Assembly (NCBI GenBank): GCA_040757115.1
Contig: JBFLYA010000033.1
Location: forward strand, 19,724-25,774
DNA: 6,051 nucleotides
Source: a bacterium
GTDB lineage: Bacteria; UBA9089; CG2-30-40-21; SBAY01
Direction: 5' to 3'
Made by a program: the position numbers and the translations under genes. Of this stretch, positions 2,785 to 6,051 are shown piece by piece. Under the pieces are notes generated by a model. It was not told where the DNA came from, searched no databases, and saw only the letters and a list, made by a program, of their open reading frames with translations. Each line of letters starts with the position of its first letter. Within the stretch, counting starts at the first letter, position 1.

Positions 2785-2970
2785 GGGAAAAATCGAGACG
2801 GTTCACCCTCCTCAATTCTCATAACTGTTCAGCCACGGATGCACACAGATGAAACACGGAAAATCGGTGGTGTCTGAAAATAACTCTAATAGTGAAATCT
2901 ATGCAGATTTGGTGTCCAAAAGGGATTTCCTCCAAAGAGCAAAATGCAAAAAGCAAATATAAAAATTACA

Positions 2971-3192
2971 TATCAAAATGTAAAATTATCTCTTTCCTTT
3001 CAGCGTTAAAATAGAAATCCTTTTGGGACGGTTCACTTTTGTTTGAAAGATTGCGGATTGAAATTGGAAATTAGGGAAAGAGACAAAAGCCCAATTTCTA
3101 ATTTCCAATTTCCAACAAAAATCATAGGAAAAACGATAAAAGGAACCGTCCCGTCCTTTTTGAAATTTGATTTGTAATTTTGCATTTTGATA
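2971..3192. repeat. Concentric imperfect palindrome within the island
   Basis: Three pairs of inverted repeats share almost the same centre. The outer pair is TATCAAAATGTAAAATTA (2971-2988) with its inverse at 3175-3192 (17 of 18 match). The middle pair is GGGACGGTTC (3025-3034) with GAACCGTCCC (3143-3152), perfect. The inner pair is AAATTGGAAATTAG (3061-3074) with its inverse at 3098-3111, perfect. The middle motif also occurs as GAGACGGTTCAC at 2795-2806. GGGACGGTTC-type palindromes recall REP-like sequences mobilised by Y1 (TnpA-REP) transposases, but no such gene is in this window. Confidence 0.65.
3060..3112. repeat. Central 15-bp hairpin built from heptads
   Basis: The arms at 3060-3074 and 3098-3112 pair perfectly over 15 bp around a 23-base loop. 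The right arm is three 7-bp units (CAATTTC, TAATTTC, CAATTTC; 3092-3112), so the hairpin and the heptad repeat are the same sequence. No T-run follows on either strand, so it is not a standard intrinsic terminator. Confidence 0.6.
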
Positions 3193-3213
3193 TTTAATAT
3201 TTGATATTTGATA
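3186..3213 (+). repeat. Four tandem TTTGATA heptads
   Basis: Units TTTGATA, TTTAATA, TTTGATA and TTTGATA lie at 3186-3192, 3193-3199, 3200-3206 and 3207-3213, followed by a partial TTTATTT. This is one of several places in the window where repeats have a strict 7-bp period. Confidence 0.75.
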
Positions 3214-3284
3214 TTTATTTGTTGTCTCCCTCAAATCCTATTTTGCAGAACCCTATACACTATTTTAACCTTTATGCTAGATTA

Positions 3285-3376
3285 AGACAGCCCCGGAAAA
3301 TCCAGCTAATCGTATTCGGGTCGTGTCTGTAATTTGCCTATAAGGAATCCACCTTCTAATCCCCCGCCAGCGGGGG
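3285..3376. other. Two small stem-loops in the right part of the island
   Basis: At 3285-3328 an imperfect stem pairs AGACA with TGTCT and CCCCG with CGGG around about 20 bases. At 3361-3376 a compact G+C-rich stem (CCCCCG, loop, CGGGGG) stands out from the AT-rich surroundings. Neither is followed by a T-run, and no gene ends nearby, so I see no terminator function. They may be structural parts of the island. Confidence 0.4.
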
Positions 3377-3465
3377 ACATTCGCTTCTAACCTCTGTCCT
3401 CTGCTATTTATATTTATCCGTGCTAATCCGTGTCAATCAATGGCTGAACAGTTACAATAAATTTA

Positions 3466-3534: not shown

Positions 3535-3822
3535 ATGAATAGCGAGCAAATAATAGAGACTTTACTCTTATGGAATTTTTGGGAGAAGGATATAGATATA
3601 GGTGTGCTCAGGGAAGAGTATCTAACACGGATAAGAAGATATTTATCTACGGATGAAATTGTAGTTGTAACAGGGGTGAGACGGTCGGGTAAAAGCACTC
3701 TTTTGCTTCAGGTAATCTTCGAGTTAATTAAAAATAATCTTCCCAGCATCAATACCCTTTATGTTAATTTTGAGGACCCGAGGTTTTATAATTTTTCGAC
3801 CTGTGAAATAGGAATATTTTGA
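3535..3822 (+). pseudogene. Truncated AAA_14/DUF4143-type ATPase, cut off after Walker A and the following strand
   Basis: The first 88 or so residues match the N-terminus of the AAA_14/DUF4143 family of ATP-binding proteins. The Walker A motif GVRRSGKST is at residues 47-55, preceded by the hydrophobic strand EIVVVT (41-46). The conserved VNFEDPRF follows at 77-84. Intact members are roughly 400 residues, with Walker B, sensor and DUF4143 regions; here the frame ends at residue 95. The last residues come from the 23-bp inverted repeat bounding the GxxExxY cassette (from 3790), so the insertion explains the truncation. None of the three forward frames after the cassette (4351-4420) resumes the ATPase, so the 3' part is missing rather than merely interrupted. 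AGAGGT (3521-3526) lies 8 bases before the ATG, and the promoter is perfect, so a fragment may still be expressed. Function of the family is poorly defined. Confidence 0.82.
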
Positions 3823-3841
3823 TCGTGGTTAGTATAAGAAG

Positions 3842-3874
3842 GGGGATAAGGGGATAAAGGAGATATGGAGATAT
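3842..3874 (+). repeat. Left GGRGATAN octamer array, containing the GxxExxY start codon
   Basis: Four units of 8, 8, 9 and 8 bp (GGGGATAA, GGGGATAA, AGGAGATAT, GGAGATAT) form a 33-bp array. It matches the inverted right array at 4248-4280 in 27 of 33 positions. It supplies both the Shine-Dalgarno AAGGAG (3857-3862) and the ATG (3865-3867), so repeat and translation start are fused. Confidence 0.75.
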
Positions 3875-4248
3875 CAAAAGGATATCAAGAAAATTTACTT
3901 ACTGAGATAATAATTCAATGTATTATTAAGGTACACCAGACATTGGGTCCAGGTTTTCTGGAAAGTATTTACCGCAGGGCAATGGTAATTGAACTTACAA
4001 AACAGGGATTGAGAGTTAAGACAGAGAAAGAAATACTAATCTACTACGAAGGAGAAGAAATTGGGAAACACAGATTGGATATTCTTGTAGAAAGCAAGGT
4101 AATAGTAGAACTAAAAACGGTGGAGGAATTAAGCAAAGCTCATTATGCTCAGGTTCGCTCATATTTAAAAGCTACAGGTGTAAAGGTGGCTATTCTTGTA
4201 AACTTTGCTAAAGAAAAGGCAGATTTTAGAAGAGTGGAATTAGAATAA
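3865..4248 (+). CDS. GxxExxY protein, PD-(D/E)XK nuclease-like
   Basis: The 127-residue product has the full GxxExxY signature: LGPGFLESIY at residues 27-36, with G30, E33 and Y36. A PD-(D/E)XK-like core follows, with D72 in HRLDILV and E82-x-K84 in VIVELKTVEEL; H93YAQVRSYLKATG (93-105) is the usual third block. Length matches the family norm of about 125. The family (PF13366-like) is small, often multi-copy in one genome, and of unproven function; nuclease activity is suggested only by the fold. The start is the ATG inside the octamer array. The Shine-Dalgarno AAGGAG is just 2 bases upstream, unusually close, so translation may be weak or depend on RNA structure. The stop codon abuts the right array, so the gene fills the space between arrays with almost no spare sequence. 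Confidence 0.9.
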   Translation: MEISKGYQENLLTEIIIQCIIKVHQTLGPGFLESIYRRAMVIELTKQGLRVKTEKEILIYYEGEEIGKHRLDILVESKVIVELKTVEELSKAHYAQVRSYLKATGVKVAILVNFAKEKADFRRVELE

Positions 4249-4280
4249 TATCCCCTTATCTCCTTAATCTCCCTATCTCC
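4248..4280 (-). repeat. Right GGRGATAN octamer array, inverted
   Basis: On the minus strand the units read GGAGATAG, GGAGATTA, AGGAGATAA and GGGGATAT. The array begins at the last base of the GxxExxY stop codon. It is the inverted partner of 3842-3874 (27 of 33 positions). The transcript of the gene could therefore fold its 3' end back onto its own ribosome binding site and start codon. Confidence 0.72.
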
Positions 4281-4324
4281 TTTTCTTACACCAAGCAGTG
4301 GAGTATAATTTTGTTTTCCCATGT

Positions 4325-4343
4325 CGACCTATTTCACAGGTCG
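4325..4343. other. Hairpin CGACCT / AGGTCG in the right outer repeat
   Basis: CGACCT (4325-4330) pairs with AGGTCG (4338-4343) around a 7-base loop. The left copy of the outer repeat has only the inner part of this symmetry. No T-run follows, so it is unlikely to be an intrinsic terminator for the GxxExxY gene. It may be a structural end of the cassette. Confidence 0.5.
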
Positions 4344-5384: not shown

Positions 5385-5627
5385 GTAACTGTTCACCGCA
5401 GAGACACAGAGACGCAGAGAAAAACACACACCTAATTCCCCTCTCACGAGGGAAAAATCTATGGACAATACGCAGATTAACCAATCTGGCTTGCCTGCTG
5501 AACATTCGGTAAGCAGGTCATAAATATTTCTATGTCTGCACCAATAATCTTTTCTGTTATCTAATTTATTTCTATGTCTTCTCTGTTCCTCTGCGTCTCT
5601 GCGGTAAATTACCACCTGAACGGTTAC
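5385..5627. repeat. Second gene-free island, bounded by GTAACYGTTCA and CGCAGAGAC repeats
   Basis: GTAACTGTTCA at 5385-5395 faces its inverse TGAACGGTTAC at 5617-5627. Just inside, CCGCAGAGACACAGAGACGC (5396-5415) continues to 5420 and has an inverted counterpart at 5580-5604 (21 of 25 match), built from tandem octamers such as GCAGAGAC. The middle holds a CCCTC/GAGGG stem at 5439-5452, a CCTGCT/AGCAGG stem at 5494-5517, and a 12-bp direct repeat ATTTCTATGTCT (5526-5537 and 5568-5579). No gene is supported; open frames on both strands are readings of the octamers. Repeats of the CGCAGAGACGCAGAG kind are widespread in environmental bacterial genomes. Confidence 0.65.
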
Positions 5628-5924: not shown

Positions 5925-5935
5925 GTAACCGTTCA
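5925..5935 (+). repeat. Sixth copy of the GTAACYGTTCA motif
   Basis: GTAACCGTTCA is identical in sense to the inverse of the copies at 4410-4420 and 5617-5627. It lies 25 bp before the third octamer array, so it may open another element that continues beyond the window. Confidence 0.65.
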
Positions 5936-5950
5936 AGCTATATATCAAAA

Positions 5951-5993
5951 GTGTAAGAAAGGGGATAAGGAGATAAGAGTGATATGGAGATAA
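5951..5993 (+). repeat. Third GGRGATAN octamer array
   Basis: GTGTAAGAAA (5951-5960) is followed by units of 8, 8, 9 and 8 bp (GGGGATAA, GGAGATAA, GAGTGATAT, GGAGATAA). Over 33 bp this matches the left array of the GxxExxY cassette in 28 positions, including the embedded ATG-GAG-ATA (5984-5992). Here that frame meets a stop after four codons, so no GxxExxY protein starts at this point. Confidence 0.7.
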
Positions 5994-5997
5994 GATA

Positions 5998-6037
5998 ATA
6001 GAAATAGATTGAAATTTATAGAAATAGGTAGAAATTG
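5998..6037 (+). repeat. Four tandem decamers at the right edge
   Basis: Units ATAGAAATAG, ATTGAAATTT, ATAGAAATAG and GTAGAAATTG lie at 5998-6007, 6008-6017, 6018-6027 and 6028-6037. They follow the third octamer array directly. The last 14 bases show nothing assignable. Confidence 0.65.
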
Positions 6038-6051
6038 ATTGTGGAAAACAA

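Follow-up and report, generated by a model that had tools for sequence, protein, structure and literature searches.

Inverted arrays of short repeats frame GxxExxY genes in bacteria and archaea and suggest a minimal selfish cassette

Why would a small gene fit, to the base, between two inverted arrays of short repeats? The question is raised by a 6,051-bp stretch of DNA (hereafter the window), which is part of contig C33 of the 4.3-Mb bacterial genome G000. The gene belongs to GxxExxY, a common multi-copy family for which we know of no established role. As far as we are aware, the family entries (TIGR04256 and PF13366, PDDEXK_3) cover the protein alone and do not include inverted arrays at its flanks. 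We found that most genes of the family across bacteria and archaea are framed by such arrays and that the spelling of the repeat goes with the protein's branch. This suggests that enzyme and repeats form one selfish unit. Here we describe the locus, ask how general its architecture is, and weigh what the arrays may be for.

The block in the window is compact. A left array of GGRGATAN units occupies 3842-3874 on the forward strand (GGGGATAAGGGGATAAAGGAGATATGGAGATAT) and contains both the ribosome binding site and the ATG start codon (3865-3867) of a 127-aa predicted PD-(D/E)XK nuclease encoded at 3865-4248 (forward strand; PF13366 2e-40, TIGR04256 1.2e-40). The right array is inverted and lies at 4248-4280 on the reverse strand, where its reverse complement reads GGAGATAGGGAGATTAAGGAGATAAGGGGATAT; because the stop codon TAA is at 4246-4248, this array starts on the last base of the stop. 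The two arrays are identical at 27 of 33 positions. Outside them lie GTRTAAGAA-type tails, GTATAAGAA on the left (3832-3840, forward strand) and GTGTAAGAA on the right (4283-4291, reverse strand); GTGTAA tails are also found outside GGAGAAA and GGGAAAA arrays. The initial annotation had reported the inverted arrays, the start codon within the left one, the right one beginning on the last base of the stop, and the tails on both sides. Re-measurement returned the same coordinates and the same count of matches, and the placement of start and stop is exact to the base. This layout is not a product of chance, since sister copies of the gene have the arrays too, and over 25 short elements have them with no gene.

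The protein itself is a full member of its family. The window ORF scores 138.5 bits for TIGR04256 (curated cut-off 35) and 138.2 bits for PF13366 (cut-off 22). In an alignment of 55 sequences D72, E82 and K84 are invariant and Q96 is nearly so, and the catalytic D...ExK lies in an alpha/beta core, the arrangement by which the PD-(D/E)XK superfamily is defined and by which we predict a nuclease. An AlphaFold2 model (pLDDT 92.7) has as its best VIA-align match Cas4 SSO0001 (Z 9.6, rmsd 3.1, 99 residues). Lower matches are to Hjc resolvases (Z 7.1) and to further nucleases with this fold, although those below Z 8 may reflect a common arrangement only. Judged by this model, the protein is predicted to be a Cas4/Hjc-like PD-(D/E)XK nuclease. 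It shares the core with Cas4, the Hjc Holliday-junction resolvase and lambda exonuclease; however, it is only 127 aa long, matches them weakly or not at all in sequence, and has no CRISPR genes beside it. The PF01930 (Cas4) score falls under the cut-off (17.4 against 22.7), PADLOC returned weak Cas4-like matches only (best E 7e-4), and no cas genes were found among the window ORFs searched. A sequence search of the PDB gave no match, and no relative of the protein was found in viral contigs. Genome G005 belongs to another family of the same order; its copy of the gene differs from that of the window with a dN of 0.080 and a dS of 0.64 (dN/dS about 0.12), which indicates that the protein is kept by selection.

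Are the arrays a peculiarity of this locus? Other GxxExxY genes in G000 lie between equally tight inverted arrays built of other units, namely CGCAGAGAC, CGCAAAG, CACGAATT, GGAGAAA and GGGAAAA. Beyond G000, we drew on two samples: an independent scan with one genome per species, which gave 80 loci from many phyla including archaea, and a profile search of 242 genomes, with a match in 56. Removal of near-identical proteins left 73 (the multi-phylum set) and 102 non-redundant loci from other genomes. Inverted arms, scored without gaps at +1 per match and -1.5 per mismatch with a threshold of at least 12, surround the gene at 73% of the 73 loci and 75% of the 102. At other places in the same loci the corresponding rates are 1.7% and 1.3%, and with arms swapped between loci they are 12% and 6%; among 30 genes for ParE toxins, also a small multi-copy family, none has arms. 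The arms are close to the gene, with a median of 20 bp from the left arm to the start of the domain and 9 bp from the stop codon to the right arm. About a quarter of GxxExxY loci have no detectable arms. The expectation that the arrays would be conserved around relatives of the gene is borne out for the architecture but not for the unit, as GGRGATAN belongs to one subfamily and others carry other units. Outside the window's phylum, genome G159 holds two tandem GxxExxY copies between the same two genes that flank one copy in G246 and none in G247 and G251; this is a presence/absence case in which divergence of the intergenic DNA hides the exact borders. The head-to-tail copies in G159 (L407, 13680-14523; L409, 1743-2690) carry CGCAGATT arrays and measure about 472 bp per unit.

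What determines the spelling of the unit? Proteins with an LGxGL motif have AG-type units (C[AG]C[ACGT][AG]AG, for example CACAGAG, CGCAAAG or CACGAAG) at 95 loci and GAT-type units at 3. Those with an LGxGF motif have GAT-type units at 16 loci, GGA-type units (the class of the window) at 4, the AAT type at 1 and the AG type at 0; the remaining loci could not be classed. The association has a Fisher value of 2e-20, without correction for descent. Mapped on the protein tree, the type of unit switches 7 times, compared with a mean of 26 and a minimum of 22 when labels are shuffled. Within the six genomes that hold several unit types there are 3 changes, against 12.3 with shuffling, and 0 of 1000 shuffles was as low. 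Because changes on the protein tree are few even within these multi-type genomes, host composition does not explain the type of unit. The finer variant of the unit, CAC or CGC, is almost free on the tree, with 21 changes compared with 29 after shuffling. Units are spaced 8-10 bp apart in the AG type, 9-10 bp in the GAT type and mostly 8-9 bp in the GGA type. Common descent of gene and array together probably accounts for part of the pattern. Nevertheless, arrays under no constraint should not stay recognisable between proteins at 35-65% identity, and a unit that follows the clade of the protein rather than the host fits a GxxExxY protein that acts on its arrays. One relative deserves mention in its own right: the copy in G005 (L110, contig C393), 85% identical to that of the window, has an expanded 5' array of many near-perfect GGAGATAA units.

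How does the block move? The initial annotation had overlooked a further pair of terminal inverted repeats, 16 bp long and lying outside the arrays: CGACCTGTGAAATAGG at 3797-3812 (forward strand) and CCTATTTCACAGGTCG at 4328-4343 (reverse strand), each the exact inverse of the other. These tips enclose the array-gene-array block in an element of 547 bp (3797-4343), which is MITE-like in its terminal inverted repeats, its short length and its several near-identical copies. Between the tips there is no match to a transposase family and GxxExxY is the sole gene, so the element is not an autonomous insertion sequence. Sequence searches of G000, from which all genome-wide counts derive, found near-identical full-length copies on contigs C218 (98%) and C76 (96%), together with contig-end pieces and internal-deletion derivatives of 362, 304 and 237 bp. 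Perfect 8-bp target duplications lie directly outside the CGACCTGT tips at five sister copies, the whole-gene copy on C218 included, and gene-bearing copies with such perfect duplications are found on contigs C218, C16 and C7. The window copy, flanked by TAATTTTT and CAAAATTG, has no target duplication and has apparently lost its own. Its left end truncates an AAA_14-type ATPase gene, of which the 5' part remains at 3535-3796 (forward strand; AAA_14 1.7e-10), and the sequence on the element's right-hand side adjoins, in the sister genome G001, the 3' part of an apparent AAA_14-type ATPase gene. Relative to G001 the left flank has apparently been deleted, and another small element stands at that place in G001; together these hide the precise site at which the window element inserted. 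The comparison suggests that the left side of the window copy lost the 3' part of the ATPase gene along with part of a small neighbouring element.

Array copies without the gene outnumber gene-bearing copies in G000, and the arrays therefore persist without the gene in cis. Several of these short elements retain remnants of the ends of the GxxExxY gene, and from their sequences they look like internal-deletion derivatives. This bears on the observation that the initial annotation had said would count against a unit of gene and arrays, namely arrays scattered through the genome with no link to GxxExxY genes: the scatter is real, but the link survives in the remnants. The ends of the arrays themselves show no clear excess of target duplications over swapped flanks (121 elements, across genomes), and the movement of gene and arrays that we observed is by transposon tips. 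The proposal of a minimal transferable unit thus needs to be redrawn. Gene plus inverted arrays does recur, far beyond G000, but within G000 it moves inside transposon tips, of the CGACCTGT or the GTAAC type, with 8-bp target duplications. Two gene-bearing elements, L058 and L062, sit inside GTAAC-type tips with the duplications TTATACAC and GATAGGTG, and therefore the transferable unit seen in G000 is tip-array-gene-array-tip.

We hold with moderate confidence that the arrays are the GxxExxY protein's own sites and that gene and arrays form a selfish cassette, riding here in DDE-type transposons, with the protein presumably binding and cutting the arrays. On this view a minimal predicted PD-(D/E)XK nuclease is encoded exactly between two arrays, inverted and made of short units (8 bp here) with a core specific to its subfamily. 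It would recognise its own units at both ends and nick or cut there, and repair of the breaks, or recombination between arrays, would copy or homogenise the cassette. In G000, cassettes and their array-only derivatives are carried in short non-autonomous DDE-type transposons of the MITE-like kind. The association of array and clade could partly reflect descent of the whole cassette. A broader version is possible, and we offer it tentatively: GxxExxY genes and, in parallel, PF05635 genes would be unrecognised minimal selfish elements that cross phyla, with inverted arrays of their own recognition unit at both ends, the length and core of the unit being set by the protein family. The protein would spread or protect the arrays, and dispersed array pairs would be its non-autonomous offspring.

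Could gene and arrays instead be inert cargo of MITE-like elements, mobilised in trans by transposases of the IS66-like and other kinds? The arrays would then be subterminal sites for the transposase, or neutral inverted ends that gene conversion keeps alike. IS66 elements end in GTAA and make 8-bp target duplications. A second tip in G000, GTAACCGTTCAGG, occurs in 360 exact copies against 1 for the reversed control; paired GTAAC-type tips with 8-bp duplications (searched with at most 1 mismatch, nearly all listed cases being perfect) enclose many elements, gene-bearing ones included; and a locus for an IS66-family transposase is bounded on both sides by the same tips. All of this is what such a passenger would look like. 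However, GTAAC tips enclose GGRGATA, GGAGAAA, GGGAAAA and CGCAGAG arrays as well as those of four-helix-bundle genes, and GGRGATAN arrays are enclosed by tips of at least three types (CGACCTGT, GTAAC and GGTGGTGTCTGA). This free combination of array and tip argues against the arrays being sites of the tip transposase, an assignment we rejected. Moreover, across genomes the type of array follows the cargo protein, which is under purifying selection. We consider inert passage unlikely. Less probable again is autoregulation, in which the arrays would be operators or translational control sites for the GxxExxY protein or another factor and array-only copies would be dispersed operators or decoys. 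The ribosome binding site and start codon inside the left array, and arms a few bases from the start and stop codons at many loci, are what regulation would predict, but it leaves unexplained an equally strong inverted array past the stop codon, the same unit variant in both arms, and the conserved active site of a nuclease.

The PF05635 family of four-helix-bundle proteins, named after the intervening sequences of 23S rRNA, brings in a further reading, that the arms form a hairpin in the RNA, with the element trimmed by RNase III so that insertions are tolerated. Its genes share the architecture: inverted arms are present at 36 of 42 loci (L078-L099, L338-L366), with a best period of 7 bp in 26 of the 36, compared with units of 8-10 bp around GxxExxY genes. 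In Coxiella burnetii, an intervening sequence described as selfish carries GACAGAT heptamers in tandem directly ahead of the S23 start codon, a 28-bp terminal inverted repeat that encloses the ORF, and excision by RNase III (PMC4990558). For GxxExxY, pairing in RNA would favour G-U over A-C mismatches between the arms, but no such excess is seen (133 against 123, p 0.57). The likeness of the arms is thus not maintained by pairing in RNA, and the order of units is often not mirrored between them. The arms of one element do resemble each other closely, with a cosine of unit variants of 0.76 compared with 0.21 between elements. We regard the hairpin as very improbable for the GxxExxY arrays.

The selfish cassette that we favour has to be placed among known systems. 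Like a 23S rRNA intervening sequence, it is a small gene between inverted ends built of short direct repeats. It differs in its predicted nuclease fold, in units of 8-10 bp rather than 7 bp, and in the lack of any sign of selection for RNA pairing; the window ORF is PF13366 and not an S23 four-helix bundle, and the element truncates an ATPase gene, with no match to a known RNA family of Rfam in the window, so it does not lie in an rRNA gene. By analogy, the GxxExxY cassette appears to be the equivalent of an intervening sequence in which a nuclease replaces S23. In REPIN-RAYT systems (TnpA-REP with REP), a single gene is likewise flanked by short inverted repeats and many gene-less inverted pairs are scattered through the genome; however, the RAYT protein belongs to the Y1 HUH transposases and each REP is a single palindrome, whereas here the protein is PD-(D/E)XK by Pfam and NCBIfam and the ends are iterated 8-bp arrays. 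MITEs and other non-autonomous DDE elements with IS66-like ends resemble the elements of G000 in being short, with terminal inverted repeats, 8-bp target duplications and many copies. Unlike them, some copies here carry an intact predicted nuclease gene and nearly all of those examined have inner arrays specific to their class, as do nearly all elements at sampled GTAAC tips, which contain short inverted arrays of some class. In addition, the tips of the window copy are CGACCTGT and not the GTAA terminus of the IS66 type.

In the open-access literature we found no account of arrays flanking GxxExxY genes, an absence that is not proof. One paper that names GxxExxY mentions it solely as a gene beside a reverse transcriptase, with nothing on its flanks. 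Another paper that names GxxExxY, judged by its title, reportedly deals with an algal virus genome. Among related repeats, TAACTGA heptamers have been described in Beggiatoaceae (PMC4679880). Array-framed GxxExxY genes resemble minimal selfish genes with inverted repeat ends, such as intervening sequences and REPIN-RAYT, and since we infer their function we do not call them categorically new. Why do they matter? The link between class-specific inverted arrays and GxxExxY gives the protein a directly testable function, the binding or cutting of its own array, and would explain one widespread class of intergenic repeat (CACAGAGRCACAGAG, CACGGATTNACACGGATT, CGCAAAGRCGCAAAG and similar). The parallel with four-helix-bundle genes, whose units are 7 bp, extends the picture to 23S rRNA intervening sequences, which have long been known. 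By analogy it points to independent use of one architecture by two unrelated small proteins.

The window and its genome hold several further small elements. At 5385-5627 lies a MITE-like element with GTAAC tips, CGCAGAGAC arrays and the target duplication AGAAAATT. A third kind, at 2866-3294, has the ends GGTGGTGTCTGA...TAAGACAGCCCC, a perfect 8-bp duplication (GGAAAATC) and an exact empty site in G001; it holds AAATTGGAAATTAG inverted repeats and is itself nested in an outer element (2822-3456) with TAACTGTTCAGCCACGGAT ends and CACGGAT-type arrays. The last part of the window, 5925-6051, is the start of a 237-bp gene-less GGRGATAN element. Its family is present in many copies in both G000 and G001 and carries a second, inner pair of inverted arrays of the AGAAATTGAT type. 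Finally, GGRGATAN arrays lie in a hybrid element elsewhere in G000 (L025, contig C3, 48500-51000, at 1187-1311 of that locus) whose two tips differ, one being GTAAC and the other of the CGACCTGT type, as would result from an exchange of tips through the arrays.
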